Assembly: GCA_013538855.1 (NCBI GenBank)
Contig: JABXJS010000217.1
Location: forward strand, 1-40,004
Reading direction: 5' to 3'
DNA: 40,004 nucleotides
DNA from: Herpetosiphonaceae bacterium
GTDB taxonomy: Bacteria > Chloroflexota > Chloroflexia > Chloroflexales > Herpetosiphonaceae
The notes below the pieces were generated by a model that saw nothing but the letters and a program-made list of their open reading frames with translations, did not search any database and was not told the DNA's origin. This document shows positions 2-33,373 of the stretch, piece after piece (within the stretch, counting starts at the first letter, position 1; every line of letters begins with the position of its first letter). The position numbers were made by a program, and so were the translations under genes.

Positions 2-3000
2 CTGGCGACCCACGGCATCAGCAGCGCCTACGTACCGCCGTTTTTTGTCGCCGATCTGGCGCAAGCCGTCGAGCGCGCCGCCCACGACTTGCGCCTGCGC
101 CGACTCCTAGTCGGCGTCGAGCCGATCCCCGAGGAGCTGCTGCAGACAATTGCGGCCCAGCTGCCAGCGCTGACAATCATCAATGGCTACGGCCCCACCG
201 AGACCACCGTGTGCTCGACACTCTACCGCATTGCGCCGACGCCGCGCCGCCGCCGCACCACGCCAATTGGCCAGCCGCTGCAGAACACGCAGATCTATGT
301 GCTTGATCAGCAGCTGCAGCTCGTGCCGCTCGGCGTGCCTGGTGAGATCTACATCGGCGGCGCGGGCCTGGCGCATGGCTACCTCAACCAGCCAGCGCTG
401 ACCGCCGCGCGCTTCATCCCCGATCCGTTCAGCGGCGCGCCCGGAGCCAGGCTGTACCGCACTGGCGACCTGGCGCGCTGGCTGCCGACAGGCGAGCTAG
501 AGTTTCTTGGGCGGCGCGATCAGCAGGTCAAGCTGCGCGGCATGCGCATCGAACTCGGCGAGATCGAGGCGCTGCTGCGCACGCATCCAGCGGTGCGCAG
601 CGCCGTGGCCAGCGTGCGCGAGGACACGCCCGGCCAGCAGCGCCTGGTGGCCTATGTGGTCGCCCAGCCAGACAGCGCCGCGCCCACCCTGCTCAGCGCG
701 CTAGACGACCTCATGGCCCAAACGCTGCCCGCAGCCATGCAGCCGCTGCTGATGCTGCTGGACGCCCTGCCGCTGGCCCCAAGCGGCAAAATCGACCGCC
801 GCGCCCTGCCGCAGCCAGCGGCGGGCACTGCCAGTGCCGACAGCGCCCCGCTCAGCGCGCTTGAGGCGACCATCGCCAGCATCTGGCGCGAGCTGCTCGG
901 CACGCTGGTGACAAGTCGTGAGGCCAACTTCTTCGCCTTGGGCGGCCACTCGCTGCTAGCGGCGCGGCTGGCGCATCGGCTGAGCACGACATTCCAGGTT
1001 GCGCTGCCGATGCAGGCGGTGTTCGCCGCACCGACCATCGCCGCCCAAGCCGCACAGCTCGCCAGCGCGCAGCGCCAAGACCACAGCGCCGACAGCCTGC
1101 CGCTGGTTGATCGCAGCGCGCCGCTGCCGCTGTCCTTCGCTCAACAGCGCATCTGGTTCCTTGACCAGCTGGAGCCGGGCAACCCGGTCTACAACACGGC
1201 GCTGGCAGTGCAGCTGCGCGGGCCGCTCGACGCTGCGGCCATGCGCGCCAGCCTTAGCGCGCTGGTCGCACGCCACGAGGCGCTGCGCACAACGTTCGCC
1301 GTGCAGGATGGCCAGCCGGTTCAGGTCATTCAGCCGCCGTGGGCAGTCGCGCTGCCGAGCCTTGATCTCAGCGCGCTGCCAGCTGAACAGCGCACACAGC
1401 GCGCCGAGCAGGAGATCAGCCTCGCCGTGCGCACAGGCTTTGATCTTAGCCGCGAACCGCTGCTGCGCGCCATGCTGCTGCGCCTGAGCGCCGACGAGCA
1501 CATCCTCACCCTGATCACGCACCACATCGTTTTTGATGGCTCGCACGACCTGTTTTATCAGGAGCTAGCGGCGCTCTACAACGCCCAACTGCGTGGCGCA
1601 AACCTGACGCTGCCAGCGCTGCCAGCGCAGTATGCCGACTTTGCCGCCTGGCAGCGTCGCTGGCTGAGCGGGCCGCGGCTTGAGCAGCAGCTAGACTACT
1701 GGCGGCAGCAGCTCAGCGGCGATCTTAGCCCACTCCAACTGCCCACCGATCATCCGCGCCCGGCGCTGCAGACCTTCCACGGCGCACGCCATAGCTTCCG
1801 CCTGCCCGCTCAGCTCAGCGCCGATCTCAAGGCACTCAGCGCAGCGACTGAGTCGACGCCGTTTATGGTTGGGCTGGCGGCGTTCCAGGCGCTGCTGCTG
1901 CGCTATACCGGCCAGACGCAGATCGCCGTTGGCACGCCGGTGGTTAACCGCAGCCATCCAGCCAGCGTAAGCATGCTTGGCAACTTCGTCAACACGCTCG
2001 TGCTGCGCAGCGATCTTACAGGCAATCCGCGCTTCTGCGAGCTGCTGGAGCACGTGCGCACCGTCGCGCTCGCAGCATTTGCCCATCAGGATGTGCCGTT
2101 TGAGATGATCGTCGATGCCGTGCAGCCACAGCGCGACTTTAGCCGCAACCCGCTGTTTCAGGTAATGTTTGTGTTCCAGCCTGCGCCGCTGCAAGGCCCT
2201 GCGCTGACCAACCTCGACGCCACGATTCTGCCAGTCGATAGCGGCACAGCGCGCTTTGACCTGCTGCTGGCCCTGTGGGACGGCCCCGACGGCGTCACCG
2301 GCATGATCGAGTACAACCGCGATCTCTTTGAGCCAGCGACGATCACGCGCATGCAGGAGCACTATGTCAACTTGCTGGCCTGCGCCAGCGCGCATCCCGA
2401 GCGGCACATCGCCAGCCTCGATCTGCTGGCGGCCGCCGAGCAGCAGTGCATGCTGCACGAGTGGAACGCCACCGCCGCCGCCTATCAGCGTGATCGCTGT
2501 ATGCACGAGCTGTTCGAGCAGCAGGCCGCCAGCACGCCCGACGCCATCGCCGTGCTGGCCGACACAGGCACGCTGAGCTATCAGGCCCTCAACGAGCGCG
2601 CCAACCAGATTGCGCATATGCTGCGCGCGCTCGGCGTTGGACGTGGATCGCTGGTCGGCGTGTATATGGAGCGCTCGCTGGAGCTTATTCCGGCGCTGCT
2701 GGGCGTGCTCAAGGCCGGCGCAACCTACGTGCCGCTTGAGATCAGCTACCCACAGGCGCGCATCGCCTGGATTCTCGACGCCCTCGATGTGCGCTGCGTC
2801 GTCACCTCCAGCGCCTGCCTGAGCAAGCTCCAGGCAGCCTCGCCAGCGCTAGCGGATGTGCTCTGCCTCGACTACGCTGCGCCGAGCGCCGTTATCGGCG
2901 GGCTGCGCATCTGGGGCCAGGACGAGATCGCGCTGCAGCCGCGCAGCAATCCACAGCCGTGGAGCAGCGCCGACGATCTGGCCTACATCATCTTTACCTC

Positions 3001-4477
3001 TGGCTCGACTGGCACGCCCAAAGGCGTGATGGTGCGCCATCGCCCAGCCGTCAACCTGATCGAGTGGGTCAACCGGCGCTTTCACATCGGTCAGGCTGAT
3101 CGCGTGCTGTTCGTGACATCGATCTGCTTCGACCTCTCGGTCTACGACATCTTTGGGCTGCTGGCGGCTGGCGGCTCGATCCGCGTCGTCGGTGAGGCAG
3201 CCCTGCACGACCCAGAGCAGCTGGTGGGCATCCTGAGCAGCGAGTCGATCACCTTCTGGGACTCAGCGCCGGCGATGCTCCAGCAGCTCGCGCCGCTCCT
3301 GCCGACTAGCGCACAGAGCGCACACCCGCTGCGGCTGGTGTTCCTGAGCGGCGACTGGATTCCCGTAGCGCTGCCTGATCAGGTGCGGCGGGCCTTCCCT
3401 GGCGCGCGCGTGATCAGCCTTGGCGGCGCGACCGAGGCCACAATCTGGTCGAACTTCTACCCCATCGACCGCGTCGAGCCAGACTGGACGAGCATTCCCT
3501 ACGGGCGGCCGATCCACAACGCACGCTACTACATCTTGGATGCGCAGCTCAACCCGTGTCCTATCGGCGTGGCGGGCGATCTGTACATCGGCGGCGAGTG
3601 CCTGGCCTCCGGCTATGTGCGCGCGCCAGCGCTGACGGCCAGCAAGTTTCTGCCTGATCCGTTTGCCAGCACCGCAGGCGCGCGCATGTACCGCACCGGC
3701 GATCAGGCGCGCTTCTGGCCCGACGGCACCATGATCTTCCTTGGCCGCGTCGACCACCAGGTGAAGGTGCGCGGCTTCCGCATCGAGCTCGGCGAGATCG
3801 AGAGCGTGCTCTGCGCGCATCCCGATGTGCGCGAGGCCGTGGTGCTGGCGCGCGAGGACACGCCTGGCGACAAGCGGCTGGTGGCCTATGTGGTGCCAGC
3901 AGGCGCGTCAGCGCCGAGCAATGCCGAGCTGCGCCAGCATCTCCAGGCGCGCCTGCCGGAGTACATGCTGCCGTCGGCGTTCATGGTCTTGGCGGCGCTG
4001 CCGATCAGCAGCAATGGCAAGGTTGATCGTAAAGCCCTGCCAGCCGTCGAGCACCAGCGCCCGGCGCTCGCCGCGCAGTACCAAGCGCCAGCCGATCCCA
4101 TCGAGGCGCAGGTAGCGGCGATCTGGGCCAGTGTGCTGGGACTGGACAGCGTCGGCGTACACGATAACTTCTTTGATCTTGGCGGCCACTCGCTGCTGGT
4201 CACGCAGATTATGTTTCAGGTGCGCGCGGCCTTCCAGGTCGAGCTGCCACTGCGCGACCTGTTCGAGAACCCGACTGTGGCCGGGATCGCGGCGCTGCTG
4301 CGCACTGCGCCGAGCCAGCCACCGACAACCATTAGCGCGATTGAAAGCGTGAGCCAGAGCCACAAGACGCTGATCGACCTCCTAGACGAGCTAGAGCAGC
4401 TGCCCGAGGAGGCTGTCGATCTCTCCGACGAGGTGCTGATGCGCATCCTCTCCAGCTCAGACAGCCCTGTTCGCTAG
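2..4477 (+). CDS. Non-ribosomal peptide synthetase, 5'-truncated (A-PCP-C-A-PCP)
   Basis: The reading frame is open from base 2, so the gene enters from the left and its true start is outside the window. Domains in order: the C-terminal part of an adenylation (A) domain (motifs NGYGPTE, GEIYIGG, YRTGDLARW, GRRDQQVKLRG, SGKIDR), to about 820; a carrier protein with LGGHSLLA (Ser codon 950-952); a condensation domain about 1115-2430 with SFAQQRIWFL, the intact HHIVFDG active site (1520-1540), VNTLVLR and HQDVPFE; a complete A domain about 2505-4060 (IIFTSGSTGTPKG, FDLSVYDIFG, NGKVDRK); a second carrier protein (Ser codon 4190-4192); and an acidic C-terminal tail. By alignment to GrsA numbering from memory, the complete A domain has pocket residues DLYDFSLIWK. 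The nearest code I recall is cysteine (DLYNLSLIWK), so Cys or a related residue is inferred. The truncated A domain shows only Y278, L299, G301, G322, V330 and C331, so I make no substrate call. There is no thioesterase, so the chain passes to the next gene. Confident for family, tentative for substrate. Confidence 0.95.
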   Translation: MATHGISSAYVPPFFVADLAQAVERAAHDLRLRRLLVGVEPIPEELLQTIAAQLPALTIINGYGPTETTVCSTLYRIAPTPRRRRTTPIGQPLQNTQIYVLDQQLQLVPLGVPGEIYIGGAGLAHGYLNQPALTAARFIPDPFSGAPGARLYRTGDLARWLPTGELEFLGRRDQQVKLRGMRIELGEIEALLRTHPAVRSAVASVREDTPGQQRLVAYVVAQPDSAAPTLLSALDDLMAQTLPAAMQPLLMLLDALPLAPSGKIDRRALPQPAAGTASADSAPLSALEATIASIWRELLGTLVTSREANFFALGGHSLLAARLAHRLSTTFQVALPMQAVFAAPTIAAQAAQLASAQRQDHSADSLPLVDRSAPLPLSFAQQRIWFLDQLEPGNPVYNTALAVQLRGPLDAAAMRASLSALVARHEALRTTFAVQDGQPVQVIQPPWAVALPSLDLSALPAEQRTQRAEQEISLAVRTGFDLSREPLLRAMLLRLSADEHILTLITHHIVFDGSHDLFYQELAALYNAQLRGANLTLPALPAQYADFAAWQRRWLSGPRLEQQLDYWRQQLSGDLSPLQLPTDHPRPALQTFHGARHSFRLPAQLSADLKALSAATESTPFMVGLAAFQALLLRYTGQTQIAVGTPVVNRSHPASVSMLGNFVNTLVLRSDLTGNPRFCELLEHVRTVALAAFAHQDVPFEMIVDAVQPQRDFSRNPLFQVMFVFQPAPLQGPALTNLDATILPVDSGTARFDLLLALWDGPDGVTGMIEYNRDLFEPATITRMQEHYVNLLACASAHPERHIASLDLLAAAEQQCMLHEWNATAAAYQRDRCMHELFEQQAASTPDAIAVLADTGTLSYQALNERANQIAHMLRALGVGRGSLVGVYMERSLELIPALLGVLKAGATYVPLEISYPQARIAWILDALDVRCVVTSSACLSKLQAASPALADVLCLDYAAPSAVIGGLRIWGQDEIALQPRSNPQPWSSADDLAYIIFTSGSTGTPKGVMVRHRPAVNLIEWVNRRFHIGQADRVLFVTSICFDLSVYDIFGLLAAGGSIRVVGEAALHDPEQLVGILSSESITFWDSAPAMLQQLAPLLPTSAQSAHPLRLVFLSGDWIPVALPDQVRRAFPGARVISLGGATEATIWSNFYPIDRVEPDWTSIPYGRPIHNARYYILDAQLNPCPIGVAGDLYIGGECLASGYVRAPALTASKFLPDPFASTAGARMYRTGDQARFWPDGTMIFLGRVDHQVKVRGFRIELGEIESVLCAHPDVREAVVLAREDTPGDKRLVAYVVPAGASAPSNAELRQHLQARLPEYMLPSAFMVLAALPISSNGKVDRKALPAVEHQRPALAAQYQAPADPIEAQVAAIWASVLGLDSVGVHDNFFDLGGHSLLVTQIMFQVRAAFQVELPLRDLFENPTVAGIAALLRTAPSQPPTTISAIESVSQSHKTLIDLLDELEQLPEEAVDLSDEVLMRILSSSDSPVR

Positions 4478-4528
4478 CCCGCTGCTCTACTGATCGTGAT
4501 AACTAAGTGCAGGAGTACACACACAGCT

Positions 4529-7500
4529 ATGGATAATCTCTCAACTCGGCTGGCCGGTCTATCGCCACAGAAGCAGGCGCTGCTTGAGCGCGCGCTCCGC
4601 CAGCAAGGTGCGGCATTCAACACCTTTCCGCTCGCCTTTCAACAGCAGCGCATGTGGTTTTTGGCCACCCGCGACGCCGACGACGCATCGCAGCATATCT
4701 GCGGAGCCGTGCGCCTGAGCGGGCCGCTCGATCTGGCGGCGCTGGAGCAGAGCCTCAACACGCTGATTCGCCGCCAGGCCACGCTGCGCACCAGCTTTCC
4801 GGCGATCAACGGCCAGCCAGTGCAGATGATCGCCCCAGAGCTGCACATCAGCCTGCCGATTCTGGACCTTCAGCGCCACCCGGCGGCGACACGCACGGCC
4901 GAGGCCCAGCGCATCATCCGCGCCGAGAGCCAGCGCCCGTTTGACCTGACCGCGCCGCCGCTGATGCGCGTCACTCTGCTGCGCCTTGGCCCGGACGAAC
5001 ACATGCTGGTGACGATTCTGCACCACATCATCGCCGACCTGCGCTCGGTCGAGGTGCTGCTCTACGAGATGGCCACGCTGTACGATGCCGCTGTGCACCA
5101 GCAGCCAGCGCCGCTGCCAGAGCTGCCGATCCAGTTCGCCGACTATGCGCGCTGGCAGCAGCAGTGGATGCAGGGCGAGGTGCTCCAGCAGCAGCTTGGC
5201 TACTGGCAGCAGCAGCTGGCCGACGCGCCCGAGCTGCTGGCGCTGCCCACCGACCGCCCGCGCCCGGCCGTGCGTACCAGCGCCGGGGCCAGCCACCGCT
5301 TTCTGGTCGATAAGGCGACCAGCGCCAGCCTCGCGCGCCTGGCGCAAAGCGAGGGCGCAACGCTGTTCATGGCGGCGCTGGCGGCGTTCAAAACGCTGCT
5401 CTACCGCTACACCAGCGAGCGCGATATCTGCGTTGGCACGCCGATCATCAACCGTGGCCGCGCCGAGACCGAGGGCCTGATCGGCTTCTTTCTCAACACG
5501 CTGGTGCTGCGCACCGATCTCGATGGCGCGCCGAGCTTCCGCACGCTGCTCGGGCGGCTGCGCGAGGTTGCGCTCAGCGCCTACGCGCACCAAGACGTGC
5601 CGTTCGACTACCTGATCAACACGCTGCGGCCCGAGCGCAATCCCAGCTACACGCCGCTGTTTCAAGTGCTGTTTATCTTGCGCAACGCGCCGCTGCCGGT
5701 GCGCACAAGCGCCGGACTCACGCTCACGCCGCTGGCGATTGACAATCCGACCGCGCACTTCGACCTGATGCTGGTGATGGAAGAAAGCGCCGACGGCATC
5801 GCCGCCTCGTTCGAGTACAGCACCGAGCTGTTCGATGCCGCTACCATTGAGCGCATGGCGCAGCACTACCTGAATCTGCTCGCCGCCATCTGCGCCGACC
5901 CAGACGCCGCCATCGACGCGCTGCCGCTGCTCAGCGCCGCCGAGCGCCAGCAGATCATCGGTGATTGGAACAGCACCGCCGTCAGCTATCCTGGCCCGGA
6001 GTGCCTGCACACCCTGGTAGAGGCCCAGGCCGCCAGCCAGCCGCACGCCGTGGCGCTGATCTTCGAGGACCAGCGCATGACCTACGGCGAGCTGAACGCC
6101 CGCGCCAACCAGCTCGCGCACCAGCTGATCGAGCGCGGCGTGGGGCCGGAGACGCTGGTGGGCATCTGCGCCGAGCGCTCGCTGGAGCTGGTGGTCGGAC
6201 TGCTGGGCATCCTCAAGGCCGGCGGGGCCTATGTGCCGCTCGACGCCAGCTATCCTGTCGAGCGCCTAGCCTTTATGCTCAACGATGCCCAGCCCGCCGT
6301 GCTGCTAACGGCTCTGCCCGCAGCCGCGACGCTTAGCCCAGAGCTGCGCAGCCTGCTGGAGCAGGGCGACTGGCCGCTGATTGAGCTGACCGAAAGCTGG
6401 AGCAGCAACACCCACGCCCCGATCAGCAATCCTGACGTGGCGGTCAGCGGGGCCAATCTGGCCTATATGATCTACACCTCCGGCTCGACCGGTCGGCCGA
6501 AGGGCGCGCTCAACCAGCACAGCGGCATTCGCAACCGTCTGCTGTGGATGCAGGCGCAGTACCAGCTCACGGCGGATGATCGCGTGCTGCAAAAAACACC
6601 GTTTAGCTTTGATGTCTCGGTGTGGGAGTTTTTCTGGCCCTTGATCAGTGGCGCGCAGCTGGTGCTGGCCCGCCCAGAGGGCCACAAAGACCCGAGCTAT
6701 CTTGCCGAGCTGATTCAGCGCGAGCAGATCACCACGCTGCACTTTGTCCCCTCGATGCTGCGCCTGTTCCTTGAGCATCCGGCCGCGTCAGCCTGCACAT
6801 CGCTGCGGCGCGTGATCTGCTCCGGCGAAGCACTTGGCGTCGATCTACAGGCGCACTTCTTCGAGCGCATGGCCGCCGAGCTGCACAACCTGTACGGCCC
6901 GACCGAGGCGGCCATCGACGTATCATTCTGGCGCTGTGAGCCGCATAGCCAGCTGCCGAGCGTGCCGATTGGCCGACCGGTGTCCAACACCCAGCTGTAC
7001 ATCCTCGACCAGGCCATGCAGCCGGTGCCGATTGGCGTCGTAGGCGAGCTGTACATCGGCGGCGTGCAGGTGGGCCGCGGCTATCTCAATCGGCCGGAGC
7101 TAACGGCGGAGCGCTTTATTCGCGATCCGTTCAGCGCCGCGCCGAGCGCCCGCCTCTACCGCACCGGCGACCTAGCGCGCTTCCGCCCCGATGGCAGCAT
7201 CGAGTTCCTGGGCCGCAGCGACACCCAGGTCAAGCTGCGCGGCTTCCGCATTGAGCTCGGCGAGATCGAGGCCGTGCTCGCCGAGCACCCGGCCGTGCAG
7301 ACCGCGCTGGTCGTTGAGCGCCAGGACCGCAGCGGCGATGCCTACCTGGCCGCCTACGTGGTGCAGCGCAGCGCCGTGCCCGCCGATCAGGCCAGCGCCG
7401 TCGATAGCCAGACCGTCGCGCAGTGGCAGGAGGTCTGGGAGACCACCTACAGCGACGTGGCCGCCAGCAGCGACCCGACCTTCAACATCACCGGCTGGAA

Positions 7501-9853
7501 CAGCAGCTACACCAAGCAGCCTATTCCAGCAGAGCATATGCACGAGTGGCGCGAGCGCACCGTCGCGCGCATTCGCGCCGGCCATCCGCAGCGCGTGCTG
7601 GAGATGGGCAGCGGCACCGGCATGCTGATGTTCCGCATCGCGCCGGAGTGCCGCGAGTATCTGGCCTGCGACTTCTCGGCGGCGGCAGCCAGCTACCTGC
7701 GCCAGCACGCCGCCCAGCGCGGCCTCAGCCATGTTCGCGTTGAGCAGCGGCCCGCCGAGGACTTCAGCGGCATTCCCGACCAGGCCTTCGACGCGGTGGT
7801 GGTCAACTCGGTGCTGCAGTTCTTCCCGACCATCGACTACCTGGCGCGGGTGGTCGAGGGCGCGGTGCGCGTCACTGCGCCAGGCGGGCGCGTGTTCATC
7901 GGCGATGTGCGCAGCCTGCCGCTGCTGGAGGCATTCCACGCCTCGGTACAGCTGGCCCAGGCCGACGGGGCGCTTGAGCAGGATGTCTGGGCCGAGCGCG
8001 TGCGCAGCGCCCTCCTGCGCGAGGAGGAGCTGGTCGTCGATCCGGCCTTCTTTGTGGCCCTGCGCCAGCGGCTGCCGCGCATCGGCCACGTCGATATCTT
8101 GCTCAAGCGCGGCACGCAGCACGACGAGCTGACCAAGTTTCGCTACGACGCGATTCTGCACATCGAGCCGCAGCACGTCGCCCCTGCGCCGACCACGCTG
8201 GACTGGCAGCACGAGCAACTGACGCTGCCACGGCTTCAGCAGCTGCTGCGCGAGCATACGCCCAGTGCGCTCGGCCTCACCAACGTGCCCAACGCTCGCC
8301 TGCTGGCCGATCTCCAGCTCACCACGCACCTGCGCCAGAGCGGCCCAATGACCGTCGCCGAGCTGCGCAGCGCCGTGGAGCCGCTGACGGCCACGGGCGT
8401 CGAGCCAGAGGCGATCTGGCAGCTGGGCGCGGCGCTTGGCTACACCACCGCGATCAGCTGGCCGGGCGCTGCTAGCGCCGCCTGCTTCAACGTCACGTTC
8501 AGCCGCCACAGCGCCGCGCTTGCCAACAGCGACGGTGCCGCCCAGCCCGCCGCGCCAGAGCCACGCAGCGCCCATCGGCCATGGAGCGAGTACAGCAACA
8601 GCCCGCTGCAGGCGCTGTTCGCCCACGAGCTGGTGCCGCAGCTGCGCGCCTGCCTGAGCCAGCGCCTGCCCGACTACATGGTGCCCGCCGCCTTCGTGCT
8701 GCTGGAGCGCCTGCCGCTCACCGCCAACGGCAAGCTCGACCGCCAGGCCCTGCCTGCGCCCTACCAGTTGCGCGCCGAGCTGACCACAGCCTTTGTCGCG
8801 CCGCGCGACGAGCTTGAGCAACAGCTCGTGAGCATCTGGGAGCAGCTGCTCGACGCCCGCCCGATTGGCATCAGCGATGACTTCTTCGATCTTGGCGGCC
8901 ACTCTATCCTGGCCGTGCGGCTGATGGCGCGTATCCAGCAAGACTACGGCGTGCAGCTGCCGGTCGCAGCACTCTTCCAGGGCGCGACCATCGCCGACCT
9001 GGCCAGCCTGCTGCGCGAGCGCGTCGGAGCCAGCGCCAGCACAGCGCTTGTCGGCATTCAGCCCAGCGGCAGCCGCACGCCGTTCTTTTGCATCCATCCT
9101 GGCGGCGGCCACGTGATGGCCTACTACAACCTGGCCCACCTGCTCGGCCCTGATCAGCCGTTCTACGCGCTCCAGTCGATCGGCCTCGATGGGGCCGAGG
9201 AGCCGCTGACGCGCTTCGAGGCCATGGCCGCACGCTACATCAAGGAGCTGCGCGCCGTGCAGCCCACAGGGCCATACTTGATCGGCGGGTGGTGCACCGG
9301 CGGCCGCATCGCAACCGAGATCGCCCGCCAGCTTCAGGCCGACGGCCAGCAGGTGGCGCTGCTCGCCCTGCTCGATGCTACGCCGATCCTCAGCCACCTG
9401 CCGCTCGATGTCGAGACCGCCGACGACGCCCGCCTGCTGGGCACGATGTCGCCAGCGCTGCACGCGATCGAGCAGGCGCTGCCGCCGCTCGCGCCTGACG
9501 CACGCCTGGACACGCTGGTCGAGCGCGGGCGTGCGGCCGGACTGCTGCCAGGCGATGTCGATCTGACCTACATCCTAATGATCCTCAAGGTCTATCGCGC
9601 CAATCTGCGCGCCGAGCGCCGCTGCGTGCCCACCAGCTACCACGGGCGCACCGTGCTGTTCCGCGCCAGCCAGCAGCCGGCGGACGCGCTGCCCGACCTT
9701 GGCTGGGGCGTGTTCATCACGACGGGCCTGGAGGTCGTCGATATTCCCGGCGATCACTTCAGCATGGTCGAGGATGCCGATGATGTGCAGGCGCTTGCGG
9801 CGCTGCTGCGCACGGCCATCGATCAGGCTGGTGCAGTCGCCGCCGGGGCCTAA
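4529..9853 (+). CDS. NRPS terminal module C-A(Ser)-N-methyltransferase-PCP-thioesterase
   Basis: The protein has 1774 aa. I chose ATG 4529 because AGGAG lies upstream (4511-4515). A GTG at 4496 is in frame but has no ribosome site. The gene is 51 bp after the previous synthetase, probably in the same operon. Domains by residue: condensation about 33-470, where the active site reads HHIIADL (165-171; the usual final Gly is Leu); adenylation from about 490 with YMIYTSGSTGRPKG and FDVSVWEFF, pocket residues DVWHISLIDK, which match the serine code; an S-adenosylmethionine N-methyltransferase inserted after motif A8, about 967-1214, with VLEMGSGTG and VVVNSVLQFFP; the A-domain C-terminus with NGKLDR; a carrier protein (Ser1459 in LGGHSILA); and a type I thioesterase with FFCIHPGGG, GGWCTGG (nucleophile Cys1589 instead of Ser), the Asp of LALLDATP and His of GDHFSMVE. 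It should add N-methyl-serine last and release the product by hydrolysis, macrocyclisation or beta-lactone formation. The release mode cannot be decided from sequence alone. Confidence 0.95.
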   Translation: MDNLSTRLAGLSPQKQALLERALRQQGAAFNTFPLAFQQQRMWFLATRDADDASQHICGAVRLSGPLDLAALEQSLNTLIRRQATLRTSFPAINGQPVQMIAPELHISLPILDLQRHPAATRTAEAQRIIRAESQRPFDLTAPPLMRVTLLRLGPDEHMLVTILHHIIADLRSVEVLLYEMATLYDAAVHQQPAPLPELPIQFADYARWQQQWMQGEVLQQQLGYWQQQLADAPELLALPTDRPRPAVRTSAGASHRFLVDKATSASLARLAQSEGATLFMAALAAFKTLLYRYTSERDICVGTPIINRGRAETEGLIGFFLNTLVLRTDLDGAPSFRTLLGRLREVALSAYAHQDVPFDYLINTLRPERNPSYTPLFQVLFILRNAPLPVRTSAGLTLTPLAIDNPTAHFDLMLVMEESADGIAASFEYSTELFDAATIERMAQHYLNLLAAICADPDAAIDALPLLSAAERQQIIGDWNSTAVSYPGPECLHTLVEAQAASQPHAVALIFEDQRMTYGELNARANQLAHQLIERGVGPETLVGICAERSLELVVGLLGILKAGGAYVPLDASYPVERLAFMLNDAQPAVLLTALPAAATLSPELRSLLEQGDWPLIELTESWSSNTHAPISNPDVAVSGANLAYMIYTSGSTGRPKGALNQHSGIRNRLLWMQAQYQLTADDRVLQKTPFSFDVSVWEFFWPLISGAQLVLARPEGHKDPSYLAELIQREQITTLHFVPSMLRLFLEHPAASACTSLRRVICSGEALGVDLQAHFFERMAAELHNLYGPTEAAIDVSFWRCEPHSQLPSVPIGRPVSNTQLYILDQAMQPVPIGVVGELYIGGVQVGRGYLNRPELTAERFIRDPFSAAPSARLYRTGDLARFRPDGSIEFLGRSDTQVKLRGFRIELGEIEAVLAEHPAVQTALVVERQDRSGDAYLAAYVVQRSAVPADQASAVDSQTVAQWQEVWETTYSDVAASSDPTFNITGWNSSYTKQPIPAEHMHEWRERTVARIRAGHPQRVLEMGSGTGMLMFRIAPECREYLACDFSAAAASYLRQHAAQRGLSHVRVEQRPAEDFSGIPDQAFDAVVVNSVLQFFPTIDYLARVVEGAVRVTAPGGRVFIGDVRSLPLLEAFHASVQLAQADGALEQDVWAERVRSALLREEELVVDPAFFVALRQRLPRIGHVDILLKRGTQHDELTKFRYDAILHIEPQHVAPAPTTLDWQHEQLTLPRLQQLLREHTPSALGLTNVPNARLLADLQLTTHLRQSGPMTVAELRSAVEPLTATGVEPEAIWQLGAALGYTTAISWPGAASAACFNVTFSRHSAALANSDGAAQPAAPEPRSAHRPWSEYSNSPLQALFAHELVPQLRACLSQRLPDYMVPAAFVLLERLPLTANGKLDRQALPAPYQLRAELTTAFVAPRDELEQQLVSIWEQLLDARPIGISDDFFDLGGHSILAVRLMARIQQDYGVQLPVAALFQGATIADLASLLRERVGASASTALVGIQPSGSRTPFFCIHPGGGHVMAYYNLAHLLGPDQPFYALQSIGLDGAEEPLTRFEAMAARYIKELRAVQPTGPYLIGGWCTGGRIATEIARQLQADGQQVALLALLDATPILSHLPLDVETADDARLLGTMSPALHAIEQALPPLAPDARLDTLVERGRAAGLLPGDVDLTYILMILKVYRANLRAERRCVPTSYHGRTVLFRASQQPADALPDLGWGVFITTGLEVVDIPGDHFSMVEDADDVQALAALLRTAIDQAGAVAAGA

Positions 9854-25111: not shown

Positions 25112-26848
25112 ATGAACGAACGGTTGACGGACAGTCGGTTGGCAAACTTGGCGGCGAGCGCGATCTTCCGCACGTTCGACACGTACCAGCAGGAGTACAA
25201 GGCGCTGACGCGCCAGGCCAAACAGCGCTTCGAGCAGCAGGACTGGCACGGCATCCAGGCCGACATGGCCGGGCGGCTGGAGCTGTACCCGCGCCAGATC
25301 AACGCCGTCGTCGCCGAGATCAAGACCATCTTGGAGGAGCGCGACACCAGTACCATTGTCTGGGCCAGCATGAAGGCGGTCTACTCGGGCCTGATCGCGC
25401 AGCGCGACGACTGGGAGCTGGCCGAGACGTTCTTTAACTCGGTCACGCGGCGCATCTTCACCACCGTGGGCGTGAACCCGCAGCTGGAGTTCATCGCCAC
25501 CGACTTCGAGACGCCGCTCACCTGCGCCAGCGAGCCGATCTTTCGCACCTACCAGCGCCTGCCCACCAGCATCGCCCTGATCGAAAAAATCCTGCGCGAC
25601 TACGCCTTCGCCATGCCCTACCGCGACCTGGAGCGCGACGTGCAGCGCGTGGCCATGCTCATGGAGGCGCATCTCTACGCCCTGGGGGCTAGCCCGCGCT
25701 TCGAGCGGCTGGAGGTGCTGCGGCCGATCTTCTACCGCAACAAGGGCGCGTACATCATCGGGCGCATCATCCACGGCCAGCAGACCATCCCGTTTGTGCT
25801 GGCGCTGCTGTCCAACCCGACCGGCGTGTACGTCGATGCGGTGCTGCTGGAGGAGCACGAGGTGAGCATCCTGTTCAGCTTCACCCGCTCGCACTTCCTG
25901 GTCGATGTTGATCGCCCCTACGATCTGGTGCAGTTCCTGACCACGATCATGCCCAGCAAGCGCATCGCCGAGCTGTACATCGCCATCGGCCACCACAAGC
26001 ACGGCAAGACCGAGCTGTACCGCGACCTGCTGCAGCACCTCGCCACCTCCGACGACCGCTTCGAGATCGCCGTCGGCGAGCGCGGCATGGTGATGATCGT
26101 GTTCACCCTGCCCTCCTACGATGTGGTGTTCAAGCTGATCAAGGATCGCTTCGCGCCGCCGAAGGACACCACGCGCCGCGGCGTGATACAGAAGTACCAG
26201 CTGGTCTTTCGCCACGACCGCGCCGGGCGGCTGGTCGAGGCCTATGAGTTCGAGTACCTCAAGCTCGAGCGCGCGCGCTTCAGCCCCGAGCTGCTGGCCG
26301 AGCTAGAGGCGGTCGCCGCCTCCACCGTCAGCGTCGAGGGCCAGCACGTGGTGATCAAGCACCTGTACGTCGAGCGCCGCGTGCTGCCGCTTGATGTGCA
26401 CCTGCGCCAGGCACCACAGGCCGCTGCCGAGGCGGCCACGCTCGACTTTGGCAACGCGATCAAGGACCTGGCGATCAGCAATATTTTTCCTGGCGACATG
26501 CTGCTGAAGAACTTTGGCGTCACGCGCAACGGCCGCGTGGTCTTCTACGACTACGACGAGATCGACCTGCTGACCGACTGCAACTTTATGCACATGCCCG
26601 AGCCACAGAGCTACGACGAGGACATGGCCAGCGAGCCGTGGTTCGCCGTCGGCCCCCACGACGTGTTTCCTGAGGAGTTCAAGCACTTCCTGGGCCTGCG
26701 CGCCGACCTGCGCCGCATCTTCGACGAGCACCACGGCGAGCTGCTGACCGTCGACTACTGGCGCGACATCCAGGCGCGCCTCAACGCTGGCGAGGTCATT
26801 GACATCTTCCCCTACGACCAGCGCCGCCGCCTCGGCGTGCTATTTTAG
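25112..26848 (+). CDS. aceK: Isocitrate dehydrogenase kinase/phosphatase (AceK)
   Basis: The protein has 578 aa, the usual length of AceK, with ATG after GGGAGG (spacing 6). It is recognisable throughout: N-terminal regulatory helices (ASAIFRTFDTYQQEYKALT), then the kinase-like fold with SILFSFTRSHFLVDV, GHHKHGKTELYRDL, FKLIKDRFAPPKDT, the catalytic segment FPGDMLLKNFGVTRNGR, and YDYDEIDLL, whose acidic residues (near 480) match the metal-binding DYDE of E. coli AceK. The enzyme phosphorylates and dephosphorylates isocitrate dehydrogenase and so switches carbon between the TCA cycle and the glyoxylate bypass. Neither isocitrate dehydrogenase nor isocitrate lyase or malate synthase is in this window, so it is not in the enterobacterial aceBAK arrangement. 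It is followed 11 bp later by a RidA gene. Confidence 0.96.
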   Translation: MNERLTDSRLANLAASAIFRTFDTYQQEYKALTRQAKQRFEQQDWHGIQADMAGRLELYPRQINAVVAEIKTILEERDTSTIVWASMKAVYSGLIAQRDDWELAETFFNSVTRRIFTTVGVNPQLEFIATDFETPLTCASEPIFRTYQRLPTSIALIEKILRDYAFAMPYRDLERDVQRVAMLMEAHLYALGASPRFERLEVLRPIFYRNKGAYIIGRIIHGQQTIPFVLALLSNPTGVYVDAVLLEEHEVSILFSFTRSHFLVDVDRPYDLVQFLTTIMPSKRIAELYIAIGHHKHGKTELYRDLLQHLATSDDRFEIAVGERGMVMIVFTLPSYDVVFKLIKDRFAPPKDTTRRGVIQKYQLVFRHDRAGRLVEAYEFEYLKLERARFSPELLAELEAVAASTVSVEGQHVVIKHLYVERRVLPLDVHLRQAPQAAAEAATLDFGNAIKDLAISNIFPGDMLLKNFGVTRNGRVVFYDYDEIDLLTDCNFMHMPEPQSYDEDMASEPWFAVGPHDVFPEEFKHFLGLRADLRRIFDEHHGELLTVDYWRDIQARLNAGEVIDIFPYDQRRRLGVLF

Positions 26849-27919: not shown

Positions 27920-28765
27920 CTACTTGAGCACTACCGGCAGGTACAGCGTGTTTGGCGCTGGCGTGCCAGGCGTCGGCGTGATCGTCGGCGTGCCTGGTGT
28001 TGGCGTGATCGTCGGCGTGCCAGGCGTCGGCGTGATCGTCGGCGTGCCTGGTGTAGATGTCGCCGTCGGCGTGTCGGTGATCGTCGGCGTATCAGTGGCT
28101 GTTGGCGTATCGGTGGCTGTCGGCGTGTCGGTGGCCGTCGGCGTGTCGGCCGGCGTTGGGGTTGGCGTGGCTGGTGGCTGCGGCACACCGACGCCGATCT
28201 CGAAGCTGGCCTGGACGCTCAGATCATCGCTGCTGCCAACACTCAGACTCAAGTGAACCACGGCCACCTCATCCGGCCCCACCAGCAGATCGGCGGCGGT
28301 TGGCGAGAGGCTGAAGTAGCTCCACGCGCCAACCGGTGCGCTCTCGGCGTCAATCGGCGCGCTTGAGGCAGTGCGCAGCAGTGCGCCGGACATATCGCGC
28401 ACCTCAATATCCATTGATGCCGTGCCGGTGTAGCTGCCCGTGCGCGTCACAATCGTGGTGGCCGCCCAGTTGATCGTCATGGTGTAGGCGCTCGACGGGA
28501 AAATATAGTAGATGTCGGACACGCTGCGGTTGGAGCGGAATGAGGCGACGTTGGTGATATCGCGGCCAGCGAGATTGACGTAGGCAGCGTCGCCCTCGCT
28601 GGTAAAGCCCAAGCGCCAAAATTCGTCAAACGGATAGTTTGGGCCGCTGGCGGTGAGCTGCTGGGTTGCCGCCAGCACCACCGAGCGCAGCGGGCGCAGC
28701 GGCAGCAGCAGCACTGCCAGCAGCAGCACGCTGCCAACCAGGGCAAAAACAGGTAATCGTTTCAT
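27920..28765 (-). CDS. Secreted surface protein with Thr-Pro repeats and C-terminal LYLPVVLK
   Basis: The protein has 281 aa. ATG 28765 follows AAAGG with about 7-base spacing, and an N-terminal signal peptide (MKRLPVFALVGSVLLLAVLL) follows it. Residues about 40-190 are a beta-rich domain shared with the gene just upstream: RLGFTSEGDA, NVASFRSNR, VSDIYYIFP, TGSYTGTA, EVRDMSGALL and GSSDDL. A linker of TPTATD and GTPTITPTP repeats follows, then the C-terminus LYLPVVLK. Thr-Pro tracts ending in a YLP(L/V)(V/I) motif recur in Chloroflexota extracellular proteins as I know them, and I infer a role in surface anchoring or sorting. It is the last gene of the leftward operon, 46 bp after the paralogue. 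Function unknown. Confidence 0.85.
   Translation of the reverse strand: MKRLPVFALVGSVLLLAVLLLPLRPLRSVVLAATQQLTASGPNYPFDEFWRLGFTSEGDAAYVNLAGRDITNVASFRSNRSVSDIYYIFPSSAYTMTINWAATTIVTRTGSYTGTASMDIEVRDMSGALLRTASSAPIDAESAPVGAWSYFSLSPTAADLLVGPDEVAVVHLSLSVGSSDDLSVQASFEIGVGVPQPPATPTPTPADTPTATDTPTATDTPTATDTPTITDTPTATSTPGTPTITPTPGTPTITPTPGTPTITPTPGTPAPNTLYLPVVLK
27944..28163. repeat. Coding repeats for the Thr-Pro linker
   Basis: This holds two nested in-gene repeat types: 27-base units encoding GTPTITPTP (at least three near-identical copies in the 3' part) and 18-base units encoding DTPTAT. The units are nearly identical at DNA level, so copy number probably varies by slippage and may be misassembled. 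Confidence 0.8.
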
Positions 28766-28811
28766 GCTGTGGCCTTTCTGTTTGATACAAGTCGCAACGT
28801 CACGGCAAGCG

Positions 28812-29414
28812 TCAGTTGACGTAGACCTCAAACATTGGCCGCGCATTCAGATCATCGCTGCTGCCCAGATCAAACGTGACGTGCACGACAAGCACCTGAC
28901 CAGGATCAACCAGCGTGTCGCTCGGTGTGGTCGAGATTGCGAAAGGCGTCCAGCTGCCAATCGGGGCCGCCTCTAGGTCCAGCGCCGTCGATGAGACGGT
29001 GTGCAGCAGCGCGCCGGACATATCGCGCACCTCCAATGTCACATTCGCGGTGCCCGTGTAGGTACCAGTGCTGGTGATCACGTTCATCTGCGCGCTGATC
29101 ACGTTGAGCGTGTGCGCTGGCGCAGGAAAGATGTAGTAGATATCGGACACGCCGCGGTTGGAGCGAAACGAGGCAACGTTGGACGCGCTGCGCCCAACCA
29201 GGTTGGTATAGCTCGCATCGCCCTCGCTGGTGAAGCCAAGCCGGATCAACTCGGGATAGACGGCACCCTGCGGGCTGCTGGCGGCCGCGCGCACGCTTGA
29301 GCTAGCGGGAGCTGTGTTGGCCAGCACCATCGCCGGCAGAATCACCACCACCGCCACCAGCGCCGCCGTTAGCGCGCTCCACAGCTTGACTTTGATACCA
29401 GAAGATGTATTCAT
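28812..29414 (-). CDS. Secreted paralogue of the LYLPVVLK surface protein
   Basis: The protein has 200 aa. ATG follows GAGGAG with 6-base spacing. A signal peptide or N-terminal anchor (LWSALTAALVAVVVILPAMVLA) precedes a single domain closely matching the next gene: RLGFTSEGDASYTNL, NVASFRSNRGVSDIYYIFP, STGTYTGTANVTLEVRDMSG, APIGSWTPF and DLGSSDDLNARPMFEV. Unlike its partner it ends right after the domain, with no Thr-Pro linker or C-terminal motif. It is therefore probably released, or held by its partner. The two genes arose by tandem duplication. It lies 37 bp after the fibre gene and 46 bp before its paralogue. I do not recognise the domain. Confidence 0.85.
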   Translation of the reverse strand: MNTSSGIKVKLWSALTAALVAVVVILPAMVLANTAPASSSVRAAASSPQGAVYPELIRLGFTSEGDASYTNLVGRSASNVASFRSNRGVSDIYYIFPAPAHTLNVISAQMNVITSTGTYTGTANVTLEVRDMSGALLHTVSSTALDLEAAPIGSWTPFAISTTPSDTLVDPGQVLVVHVTFDLGSSDDLNARPMFEVYVN

Positions 29415-29451
29415 AGTCTACTCCTCTTGAGAAAAAACAGCCCGAGCGGCG

Positions 29452-30938
29452 CTACTTCTGCGCGCCTTTTTCCAGCGCGTTCATGCGCTGCTCCAGCGTC
29501 TGCAGGCGCGTCTCTTGATCGGCGAGGCGCTGCTCTAGCTCGCTGATGTAGGCATCTTTGGCCTGGAGCTGGGTGTACAGCTCTTGGATGGCGGCGAGGG
29601 CGACACCGTTGGTGTCCAGCGGGGCGATGTGGCGGTCATCCTGGCCCAGGCCAAAGGCGCGGTAGAAATCCTGCGCGGTTGGGCCGATGTGGCGCACGCT
29701 GGCACCATCGGCCTTGTAGTTCCAGCTGAGCACCGGAAACTGCATCAGCGCGTCGAGCACGGCGGTCCCATCGACAGCGGCAAAGTTCTCCTTGGCATTG
29801 ACATCGGAGTACTCAACGACGTTGCCCTGCACCAGCACATTGCCGTTGACCTCCAGCTTGGCGCTGGGGCTAAGCGTGCCAATGCCGACGTTGCTGTTGC
29901 TCGCGACCACCAGCGAGGAGCTTGATGCACCTGGCAGGATGCGGAACGGCAGACGGGAGCCACCAGGCACATCGCGGATAAAGAAGCCCGCCTCGTTGCC
30001 GCCAATATCCCAGGTGTAGTCCCCCCAGCCGCCGCCGCTCTGCTCTAGGCGTATGGCGGGCGTATCACCATCATGCAGGTGCAGCTCAAGCACCGGCGCG
30101 TTGGTGTCGCGGCCAATATAGCCGTTGGCGCTCACATAGAGCGAGTTGGTTGGCGCGTTGGCGCGCACGGTAAACGGCACCTTGGCGTTGGTCACGTCCT
30201 CCAGCGAGAACTTATCCTCGCCGCCGCTGGCGTTGTCGTTGGCGGTCAGCTGCCAGTCAACGGCGGGAAACGCGCCAGTGCTGGTGTCCTCGAACTTGAT
30301 GCGCGTGTTGTTCTCCTTGAGGCGCAGCGTGTCAAAGCCAAAGCTTTCGCCGTTCACACAGTCGAGGCCGACGCAGATGCTGCTCTGCACAATCAGGTCA
30401 TCAGCGATCACCTGGTCGTTGATGCCAGGCGTGCCGCTGGTTCCGCTGGCGGCTGGCTGGGCAGCGCCGGAGCGCGTCGGCTGGCCTGTCTGCGGCTCCT
30501 TCAGATCGCCTGCAGCGATGATCGAGCCATTGAGGATGCGGAATGCGCCCGTCTGCACCACCGACTGCAGCGCCGCGCCGCTCGCTTGCGTGCGGCCCTC
30601 AGCGGCGGAGCCGACAGGTGCGCTCGTGGCGGGCACCACGGCGCGCAGCTCGTACACATACGTGCCATCGGCAAGGTGGCTGCCCTTGCTGGCAATATTC
30701 AGCACCACCGGCTGGCCGCCAGCGAAGGTCTGCTCCGTCACCGTGCCATCTGGGCCAGCGATGCGCAGCGTCGTACGCTGGGTCTGCTCCGGTACCTGCC
30801 AGCGCAGCGTCGTCTTGGCTGCCTGGGTCTGGGCGGTCGGGGCCTGCTGCGTCAGCTCGCGCGCCTGCGTTGTGCCCTGGGCGGCAAGCAGCAGCACTGT
30901 CAGCCCAGCATCAGCACTCGATTCGATAGCGTTTTCAT
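29452..30938 (-). CDS. Fibre-like secreted protein with S74 intramolecular chaperone domain (apparent frameshift in signal peptide)
   Basis: This would be about 495 aa if one base is restored. AAAAGGAG followed by ATG 30938 starts a signal peptide MKTLSNRVLMLG that hits TGA at 30902-30900. The -1 frame continues seamlessly as LTVLLLAAQGTTQA and stays open to 29452, so one base appears to be missing near 30903-30906. Without repair the open frame begins only at GTG 30897. The mature protein has an Ig-like N-terminal region, Gly/Ser/Ala-rich linkers, and beta-rich fibre segments (LYVSANGYIGRDTN, SNVGIGTLSPSAKLEVNGN) typical of trimeric tail-fibre-like proteins. The C-terminal S74 domain starts at the self-cleavage point YSDVNAKENF (Ser about 377, Lys about 382), then VRHIGPTAQDFYRAFGLG and a coiled coil ending in QRMNALEKG. 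S74 domains assemble trimeric fibres and cut themselves off. First surface gene of the operon. Confidence 0.85.
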
Positions 30939-31007
30939 GGACTTGCTCCTTTTGCTAGAGGATAAGGACAGCACGGGTGAGGTTTAGCATTGTTGGATGG
31001 GGCGCGC

Positions 31008-31298
31008 TTAGCGCTCAGGCTCCGCCTGTGCTGCACGACCAAGGCTGAGCTGCCATGCGCGCTCGGCCGCAGCCCAGTGCATAGCCGCCTGTCCAGCTGG
31101 CCGCCCCTCGCGCAGCCAGATAAAGTAGGCCGCGTCGCGGATCTGCGCCTCCGTTGGCACGTTTGTAATCCAGTATGCGCAGGTATTGTTAGCAGCGTCG
31201 TAGGGTGGGCGGCCAAAGGCATCGCGGCCGGGGGCGGGATTGGTGTAGCGGTAGCAATCGGCCCGCAGTGGGCAGTCAGTGCCGTAGCAGCGCAGCAT
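31008..31298 (-). CDS. Small Cys-rich protein with DUF2934-like C-terminus
   Basis: The protein has 96 aa. ATG 31298 is preceded by AAAGG with about 9-base spacing. The upstream in-frame CTG is less likely. The N-terminal half carries four cysteines (MLRCYGTDCPLRADCYRYT and, later, NNTCAYW) that could bind a metal or a cluster. The C-terminal half, PTEAQIRDAAYFIWLREGRP followed by AAMHWAAAERAW, matches the short DUF2934 pattern (IR..AY..W..EGRP.G....HW..AE). No signal peptide, so cytoplasmic. It is the first gene after a strong leftward promoter and 69 bp before the fibre gene, so it may be part of that operon. Function unknown. Confidence 0.75.
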   Translation of the reverse strand: MLRCYGTDCPLRADCYRYTNPAPGRDAFGRPPYDAANNTCAYWITNVPTEAQIRDAAYFIWLREGRPAGQAAMHWAAAERAWQLSLGRAAQAEPER

Positions 31299-31609
31299 GC
31301 ACCCAGCCTTTCTGGCGAACAGCACAGACCATCGGCTGCTAGCAAGCGCAGCCGCTCTGTCGGTGTTCGTCGTTTAGCACAATGAATGTTGTGGATGCCT
31401 GCATTATCGGCGGCTCAGCTACGCCTGTCAATAGGGTTTGGCGCAAATGTACGCACAAGAGGGCGACAATCAACCGTTGGGGGGAGCAGCAAGGTGGCGA
31501 TACAACCACATAGGCAGACAATCCCTTCACTACCACAGACTCCTTACATTCTACGATAGCGAGAGAGTCGATCATCTAAAGAGGCTACATGTATAGAAGG
31601 GAAACGACC
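31299..31609. other. Divergent intergenic region
   Basis: About 310 bp separate the leftward DUF2934/fibre operon from the rightward membrane-protein gene. The leftward promoter is at 31403-31431. For the rightward gene I see no convincing -35/-10 pair, only a possible TACGAT at 31552-31557. No gene is seen, and the DNA is less GC-rich than the flanks to the left. Confidence 0.55.
31403..31431 (-). promoter_or_regulatory. Near-consensus promoter TTGACA-17-GATAAT for the surface operon
   Basis: On the minus strand, TTGACA (31431-31426) and GATAAT (31408-31403) are separated by exactly 17 bases. The predicted start near 31396 gives a leader of about 98 bases before ATG 31298. It is the best housekeeping-type promoter seen for the leftward operon. 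Confidence 0.7.
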
Positions 31610-33373
31610 ATGAACGACGTAGCACACATTGTATCAACAACGCTTGTTCTCTCCGACAACGACCATGCTGGCGTGCAGAATATTGCTTCTCCTATCACCG
31701 TCATGGTGGCAGCCGACACCGTCGCCAGCACGCTCACCGCTGAAGCCACGACCGTTTGCCGCTACGAACAGATCGTCATTGTTGGGTCGCTAAACCTGAA
31801 GTATGCGCAGATCCATAGACCAGTCGAGTTCACAGAGTGTGTATTCACTGATGCGGTTGACCTACACTATGCAGAGTTTCAACAACCACTTACGTTTTTC
31901 AAGTGCACCTTTCTGCAAGGGTTCAACAGCGGTGATCGCACAGAGTCGCTGACGATCTACCATAAGGACCTGATCTGCAACCACTCGCACTTCTGTGGGC
32001 CAGCCTCATTTAATGGAGCACAGGTGGACGGCAATGCCCTGTTCAATGATGCGGTCTTTGCCGCCTGTGCCCACGCTGCGGATGTGCCAGATGTCGACTT
32101 TATCGGCTTTACCTGCAAAGGCGGCGTCGAATTTATCTGCACAACGTTCAAAGGCCATGTCACATTCAACACGATTGAGTGCCACGATGCGATGTTCAGC
32201 GGCGCGCAGTTTCTCTCCACCCAAGGCAGTGTTGACTTCAAAGGTGCCGTGATGGCTGGCAATCTTCAATTCGATGAGGCGGCCGTTGGCGCACTGAAGC
32301 AGCCAGCGCGGTTCAAAGCCGGGCTAGACGGCACGGGCATTCGGTGTGGGCGCAAGGCGCTCTTTACAGGCGCACAGTTCGAAGGCCCGCAGCTCGTCAC
32401 ATTTGAGCGCGCTGATTTTGGCTGGAAGTTAGACTGTCGCCACACCCTGTTTGCTGGCCCCGTTAGCTTCAGCGGCGCGCAGTGTGCTGGCGATGGCATA
32501 TTTCGGCGGGCCAAGTTCACGTACAGTCAAGGCCACGACAACGGCGATGTTGATATGCGCTTCTTCCACCTGCAAGGCAACCTTGATATGACGCTTGTGC
32601 GCTGTACGGGGGTTATCAACCTTGGGCAGGCGCTGGTGCGCGGCAAGCTCAAGCTTGAGGGTGCACACTTTAAGTCGAAGGTGCAGCTCTACGACACCAA
32701 CATCAAAATTTTCGAGCTACAGTCATACCACACAACCAGCCGCTTCGAAGGGTTTCCGTTTATACCAGATAGTCTCGACCTGACCAGCTGCACCTTCGAG
32801 CGCTTCCACGCTGGGCGCGAGGGCCAAGAGCAGCAGCTTGCACAGCGCTTTGTCCAATCCCAAGACCCACGCCGCTTCAGCCGTGATCCCTACATTCAGC
32901 TTGAGCACTACTATCAGAACAACGGCCAAGAGCACGCCGCCCGCACGATTCACCTGCTGGGCCATGAGGCCATCCGTCAGAATGCCCTGCGGCCCAACGG
33001 CGGCAGCATTAATTGGTCACGCAGCCAGAAGCTTAAGGATGGGGCCTTAAAATGGCTCACTGCATGGGGCCTGCATACCGAGCGGCTGCTGTTTGCTGCG
33101 CTAGCCTTTATCATTCTGGGGACGCTGGTTTTCCTCCCTGCTGGCAGCCTCCAGCCTGTGGCTGGCAGCGCGCAAGGGCTTAGCCTCACCTCGTTTCAAC
33201 ACTTCGCCTACAGCATTGATCGCTTTGTACCAGCGCTAGACCTGGGCTATGCCAACGCCTGGCAGCCAGTCGGCAGTGGCCGCATCATCTATGCATTTAT
33301 CCACTGTGTGGCTGGATGGACGATTATTCCGCTCTATGTAGCCTCGCTAACGGGCATCATCAAGAGCGAGTAG
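31610..33373 (+). CDS. Pentapeptide-like repeat protein with C-terminal membrane domain
   Basis: The protein has 587 aa. I prefer ATG 31610 (AAGGGA about 8 bases upstream). ATG 31589 in the same frame is possible with GAGG closer by. Residues about 55-400 have many degenerate A(N/D)LxF-like strands with Phe every five residues or so (KYAQIHRPVEFTECVFTDA, SFNGAQVDG, FKGAVMAGNLQFDEA, FEGPQLVTFERADF, VSFSGAQCAG). They fit a right-handed quadrilateral beta-helix. After a helical segment with charged residues, two hydrophobic segments follow (LLFAALAFIILGTLVFLPAG and IIYAFIHCVAGWTIIPLYVAS). Between them lies FAYSIDRFVPALDLGYANAW, a pattern I associate with pentapeptide-repeat membrane proteins of unknown function. 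GC content is visibly lower than in neighbours, suggesting transfer. Role unknown. Confidence 0.8.
   Translation: MNDVAHIVSTTLVLSDNDHAGVQNIASPITVMVAADTVASTLTAEATTVCRYEQIVIVGSLNLKYAQIHRPVEFTECVFTDAVDLHYAEFQQPLTFFKCTFLQGFNSGDRTESLTIYHKDLICNHSHFCGPASFNGAQVDGNALFNDAVFAACAHAADVPDVDFIGFTCKGGVEFICTTFKGHVTFNTIECHDAMFSGAQFLSTQGSVDFKGAVMAGNLQFDEAAVGALKQPARFKAGLDGTGIRCGRKALFTGAQFEGPQLVTFERADFGWKLDCRHTLFAGPVSFSGAQCAGDGIFRRAKFTYSQGHDNGDVDMRFFHLQGNLDMTLVRCTGVINLGQALVRGKLKLEGAHFKSKVQLYDTNIKIFELQSYHTTSRFEGFPFIPDSLDLTSCTFERFHAGREGQEQQLAQRFVQSQDPRRFSRDPYIQLEHYYQNNGQEHAARTIHLLGHEAIRQNALRPNGGSINWSRSQKLKDGALKWLTAWGLHTERLLFAALAFIILGTLVFLPAGSLQPVAGSAQGLSLTSFQHFAYSIDRFVPALDLGYANAWQPVGSGRIIYAFIHCVAGWTIIPLYVASLTGIIKSE

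Follow-up and report, generated by a model that had tools for sequence, protein, structure and literature searches.

Gene organization of the locus

The stretch of DNA analysed here (the window) is the entire 40,004-base contig JABXJS010000217.1 of a Herpetosiphonaceae bacterium, which belongs to a draft genome of 6.3 Mb, split into 285 contigs (assembly GCA_013538855.1). Between positions 27920 and 31298, a leftward cluster of minus-strand genes encodes, in this order, a DUF2934 protein, a fibre protein with an S74 chaperone domain, a plain secreted protein and its stalked paralogue, with intergenic gaps of 37–70 nt. The cluster was proposed in a first-pass annotation to be a new surface-fibre system, and all four genes were confirmed by open reading frames (ORFs), Pfam matches and alignment of the two paralogues. 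The fibre protein and the two paralogues are predicted to be secreted, as judged by eye on their N-terminal sequences, and an intact ribosome-binding site precedes each of these three genes. A minus-strand terminator was looked for at the gene cluster, and none was found.

The S74 fibre protein

The fibre gene (29452..30938, minus strand; open frame 29452–30897) encodes a signal peptide whose frame is broken near 30900, an N-terminal domain that gives Fn3-like matches in the structure model, a fibre module, the S74 auto-chaperone and a predicted C-terminal coiled coil. The S74 chaperone/autoprotease domain (29653..29808, minus strand) was recognized by PF13884 (E = 8e-11), with a score of 42.5 bits for the fibre protein, which is above the curated cut-off of 22, and 45.6 bits in a search of its own genome. 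S74 domains trimerise and are then cut at the Ser of an SDxxxK motif. This catalytic motif is present as SDVNAK at residues 364–369, together with H403, and S364, K369 and H403 are nearly invariant in the S74 alignment. The best match of the S74 part, by both the structure model and a PDB sequence search, is the ICA domain of MyRF. The motif and the predicted fold are thus compatible with the trimerization and self-cleavage put forward in the first-pass annotation. Modelled as a monomer, the fibre has a poorly predicted stem (predicted template modelling score 0.33), as would be expected of an intertwined trimer.

The fibre module comprises about 190 residues (SxCVGxDCVNGExFGFDTxRLKENNxRIKF...) and matched no Pfam family. 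It is a widespread bacterial family, being encoded at no fewer than 80 loci of Chloroflexota, Acidobacteriota, Pseudomonadota, Verrucomicrobiota and other phyla, with up to 61% identity. Among the module loci listed, some proteins end in S74 and many others in a different coiled-coil end, and the SDxxxK motif is present at 22 of the 81, about a quarter. The listed loci, which span phyla and have L009–L107 among them, also include 14 with FG-GAP/ASPIC neighbours and 12 with giant DUF7933 repeat proteins as neighbours. The fibre family may be part of a wider surface-protein cluster.

The natural start of the fibre gene is ATG 30938, which is preceded by AAAGGAG. The frame from this ATG encodes MKTLSNRVLMLG and ends at a stop after 12 codons, while the remainder of the signal peptide, GLTVLLLAAQG, lies in another frame; as sequenced, there is a one-base break within 30895–30938. 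Past the break, 480 codons are open. This break, which the first-pass annotation had overlooked, may be an assembly error or genuine. The signal peptide on the S74 fibre of locus L006 (HGW-Chloroflexi-10) is intact.

The jelly-roll partner proteins

The plain partner (28812..29414, minus strand) consists of a predicted signal peptide and one jelly-roll domain, and the stalked partner (27920..28765, minus strand) of a predicted signal peptide, the same domain, a Thr/Pro stalk of about 85 residues, recognized by its composition, and the terminal sequence LYLPVVLK. The start of the stalked partner is better placed at ATG 28765 (281 residues) than at 28846 (an ORF of 308 residues), because a ribosome-binding site precedes ATG 28765. 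The two proteins are 57% identical over 152 residues (E = 5e-60), which defines a common domain some 150 residues long. This domain found no match among the sequence families of Pfam, NCBIfam or the PDB, and none of nine members of its family gave a Pfam match above chance. Its structure model is a jelly-roll beta sandwich (predicted local distance difference test, pLDDT, 79). The Foldseek matches of this model are weak (best in the PDB, E = 1.3e-3 with a template modelling (TM) score of at most 0.5; best among viral proteins, E = 4e-5 with a TM score of 0.55). They were judged too weak for a function to be read from the fold, and neither a binding nor an enzymatic function was assigned.

Relatives of the domain are few. 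A single-protein search of 41 related genomes returned only the two copies of the window, and neither a two-row profile run against the genome and viral contigs nor tblastn against phages and plasmids gave any relative outside the own genome. Most relatives surfaced only after the profile had been widened with the L006 sequence, which itself had been found via its S74 gene. Two profile searches of 400 Chloroflexota genomes gave one further genome with the domain, and the 396 genomes searched from the class that contains L006 gave L006, two more clear cases and one marginal one. This marginal match, in genome G450 (E = 0.003), was discounted, as it sits in a cytochrome-type locus. These genome samples were drawn from larger groups, and the resulting frequencies are rough. 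The plain partner has relatives in four other genomes.

Linkage of the jelly-roll domain to S74 fibre genes

Four genomes have two copies of the jelly-roll domain (the window, L006, L106 and L107), and in each of them the copies adjoin an S74 fibre gene. At L006, a plain copy, a divergent copy ending in AIFLPLIMK and an S74 fibre gene lie in a row. At L106, a plain copy and then a longer one, which has a membrane segment at its C-terminus, follow the S74 gene, and at L107 this gene is followed by a single protein that has both domains in tandem and ends in IYVPIFAK. The common form is thus a pair made up of one plain copy and one that is anchored or tailed. At L004 (genome G272), one protein combines a single jelly-roll domain with the YQG module known from the N-terminal part of Herpetosiphon-type S74 fibres (E = 3e-17); no S74 gene adjoins this fusion gene, and the one in that genome looks phage-like. 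The co-occurrence of the shared domain with S74 genes, which the first-pass annotation had named as a check of its proposal, therefore extends to other Chloroflexota, with four genomes including the window. Its suggestion that the stalked paralogue acts as an anchor is likewise consistent with the membrane-anchored or tailed counterparts in these genomes. The recurrence of the fibre-plus-partner set in distant relatives looks like that of a real, so far undescribed surface system.

The C-terminal YLP-type tail

The LYLPVVLK that directly precedes the stop of the stalked gene (27920–28765) falls within what we group here as the YLP-type tail, defined by a DNA pattern for YLP[LV][VIL][VIL][KR] before a stop codon, with a few other last residues admitted. 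In the own genome and 40 related genomes of the same order, this pattern occurs at 77 sites, compared with 5 for the reversed pattern; the own genome (6.3 Mb) has 12 sites and none of the reversed pattern. The first-pass annotation had presented the Thr-Pro stalk and the LYLPVVLK end as traits of the system, but the tail stands at 11 other sites in the same genome and is not special to it. The tail proteins of this genome are mostly large, several look exported and several have Thr-Pro stalks. The tail sits at the last few residues, with no transmembrane segment after it. None of the NCBIfam sorting-signal models matched the stalked protein, and no description of a YLP-type sorting signal in Chloroflexota, or of Herpetosiphon S74 fibres, was found in the literature, mainly open-access. 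The tail is a promising candidate for a C-terminal signal that directs sorting or retention.

The association of the tail with S74 fibres was examined at 13 Chloroflexota loci whose S74 fibre is exported, where a neighbour was counted if a same-strand ORF no more than two positions away ended in a YLP-type tail; the ORFs of the related loci were called mechanically. Such a neighbour is present at eight loci (the window, L006, L107, L166, L168, L015, L179 and L180), compared with none of the 91 other ORFs of the same stretches. The resulting Fisher p value of 5e-9 (4e-8 without the window) is flattered by spurious frames among the background ORFs; the strict tail is nonetheless rare genome-wide. 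At L164, from a Herpetosiphon-like genus, the S74 gene is followed by a partner that combines a GGFW head with a long Thr-Pro stalk and ends in IYLPQTMRG; this partner is built like the stalked protein of the window with another head and falls outside the strict count only because extra residues follow the tail.

The partner heads found so far are the jelly roll, FG-GAP and GGFW, the last either by itself or joined to cadherin-like or other parts. The GGFW-type domain (DWSTIDGGG..STGG.Y.L.GTIGQ.DA...GGFW), which recurs as a head of Chloroflexota S74 partners, was located at L179 (4243–4929), L180 (5977–6585), L181 (5273–5542), L164 (4690–5532) and L166 (4691–5101), and no Pfam model matched among the members scanned. 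In a tree of the S74 domain, which has 100 columns and many open forks, the GGFW-linked fibres fall in one supported group (96/92), with the jelly-roll-linked ones outside. The host of the window comes from the family of the Herpetosiphon-like genomes, yet its jelly-roll-linked fibre lies outside the GGFW group. This grouping suggests that partner type and fibre type go together; the tree says no more.

Proposed mechanism

Taken together, these data point to a chromosomal two-component surface fibre, in which a self-processed trimeric adhesin is held or capped by tailed partners, and we regard this reading as somewhat probable. The S74 protein would be exported and would trimerise via the S74 chaperone and coiled coil at its C-terminus, and self-cleavage at Ser364 of SDVNAK would then give the mature trimeric fibre. 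Several Chloroflexota fibres (L006, L164, L166 and L174) have a membrane segment after the S74 domain. The cut would separate the fibre from the part downstream, including the C-terminal membrane segment in the Herpetosiphon-like genomes and L006. The mature fibre, freed from its membrane tether in this way, would need a separate partner to hold it on the cell, and this need for retention after cleavage may be the reason for the frequent pairing of S74 fibres with tailed partners. The plain jelly-roll copy might cap the fibre or bind the fibre or its target, whereas the stalked copy would fix the fibre to the envelope, with the YLP-type tail as sorting or retention signal. The likely use of such a fibre would be adhesion to cells, surfaces or polysaccharide.

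A broader proposal is an undescribed surface-display route of Chloroflexota, in which a short, membrane-segment-free YLP-type signal at the C-terminus is carried by stalked partners that capture self-cleaved S74 fibres and bear swappable heads (jelly roll, GGFW, FG-GAP). We put this route forward tentatively and consider it doubtful.

Alternative explanations

The fibre and its partners could instead act independently, as secreted adhesins or matrix proteins that have a regulon or a genomic neighbourhood in common but form no joint structure, which we consider unlikely. The S74-module genes of other phyla adjoin different secreted proteins (the FG-GAP/ASPIC and DUF7933 neighbours noted above), which fits a general surface-protein neighbourhood, and the YLP tail is found on many unrelated proteins. 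However, the rare jelly-roll domain adjoins S74 in every two-copy genome, the plain-plus-anchored pair is common and is fused once, and partner type tracks fibre type in the S74 tree. Alternatively, the frame break within the S74 signal peptide could mean that the locus is decaying and its S74 gene a pseudogene, in which case only the partners act, or nothing does. This seems quite improbable, as the remaining 480 codons are open with their catalytic residues intact, all three ribosome-binding sites are intact, and an assembly error is plausible for a one-base break in a draft of 285 contigs.

An origin from a prophage or a phage-tail-derived particle, of which the locus would be a remnant, has its own arguments: S74 domains are characteristic of the tail fibres of phages, a PHROG tail-fibre family matches (E = 1.1e-9), and many phage proteins show a weak resemblance to the jelly-roll fold. 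However, phage records match only about 80–100 residues around the S74 domain, at less than 45% identity. A search of the viral contig collection, at the sensitivity used, gave no hit to the fibre module, whereas many bacterial chromosomes encode it. Signal peptides are also present. In agreement with the first-pass annotation, no phage structural genes lie nearby, the neighbours in the window being genes for AceK, RidA, nonribosomal peptide synthetases, a two-component system and metabolic functions; a PHROG search of six further ORFs gave no match. A prophage origin, which appears hardly credible on these grounds, was therefore rejected. As far as sequence comparison goes, the fibre is a member of a cellular family that shares the S74 domain with phages, because its module stands in bacterial loci, was not found in viral contigs and is matched by phages only around S74.

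Several points nonetheless weigh against the two-component surface fibre. The jelly-roll set occurs in only about 5 of the roughly 800 Chloroflexota genomes that were searched, the fibre gene of L106 is truncated at a contig end, and the Chloroflexota S74 loci L174 and L176 have no tailed neighbour. In the window itself, the sequenced frame of the S74 signal peptide is interrupted, and this gene copy may be broken. The role of the YLP tail is that of a candidate only, and the association of partner and fibre is something that we infer.

Other features of the window

The first gene of the cluster (31008..31298, minus strand; ATG 31298 in an ORF of 31008–31325) encodes a small Cys-rich DUF2934 protein (PF11154, E = 1.1e-11), which is perhaps co-transcribed with the other three genes. 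The first-pass annotation had counted it as part of the system; a motif scan found no DUF2934-like motif at ten other S74 loci, and the protein was dropped as a component, being outside the conserved set. A promoter-like site, TTGACA-17-GATAAT, lies upstream of the cluster (31403..31431, minus strand). The consensus promoter described earlier is borne out by a match at 11 of 12 positions (31431–31403), but chance alone would give 0.8 sites of this kind in the region.

Elsewhere in the window, positions 89–9853 carry two nonribosomal peptide synthetase genes, the second with methyltransferase and thioesterase domains. A full-length isocitrate dehydrogenase kinase/phosphatase, AceK, is encoded at 25112–26848 (both domains E < 1e-100); from what we know of the Chloroflexota, it was not expected there. 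A divergent pentapeptide-repeat protein with C-terminal hydrophobic segments is encoded at 31589–33373, in a patch of lower G+C content (0.54–0.58).

Comparison with known systems

To our knowledge, experimentally studied S74 fibres outside phages are few and come chiefly from one predatory bacterium. Phage S74 tail spikes and fibres, such as endosialidase and the T5 fibre, likewise have a C-terminal S74 auto-chaperone after a trimeric beta-structured stem. In contrast to these, the fibre of the window has a signal peptide (out of frame as sequenced), a chromosomal setting and a module that was not found in viral contigs. The fibres of Herpetosiphon type and of L006 that end in a transmembrane segment resemble MyRF with its ICA domain, a membrane-tethered S74 protein whose cleavage frees a trimer. 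Unlike surface fibres, MyRF frees a transcription factor inside the eukaryotic cell. The short C-terminal motif on many stalked secreted proteins recalls the LPXTG tails of sortases and the PEP-CTERM tails of exosortases, from which the YLP-type tail differs in that no transmembrane segment follows it.

The closest likeness in working is to the mosaic adhesive trimer (MAT) fibres of Bdellovibrio bacteriovorus, which are exported, chromosome-encoded and surface-displayed trimers (PMC10769870). Thirteen of the 21 MATs end in an autoproteolytic S74 chaperone with SDxxxK, their tips include beta-sandwich and TNF-like domains within the same chain, and they share a beta-rich N-terminal domain of about 130 residues that is said to have no PDB homologue (PMC10769870). 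A PDB sequence search of the window fibre matched one of them, bd2133 (E = 2.5e-4), and the S74 and other coiled-coil ends of the module family resemble the split between S74 and non-S74 MAT proteins. The earlier statement that no system of this composition had been described was thus too strong, as the MATs are secreted S74 surface fibres (PMC10769870). The window fibre would work like a MAT and is a candidate member of that superfamily; its N-terminal domain looks Fn3-like. MATs carry their variable tip in the fibre chain, whereas here the partner is encoded by a separate gene, and we found no description of a dedicated tailed partner for MAT fibres. The new element compared with MAT fibres is thus the separate, paired, head-swapping partner. 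If the proposal is true, a very different bacterial phylum builds S74 fibres from a fibre and a separate partner with exchangeable heads, and a short tail common to many secreted Chloroflexota proteins would make protein sorting in a poorly studied envelope testable.

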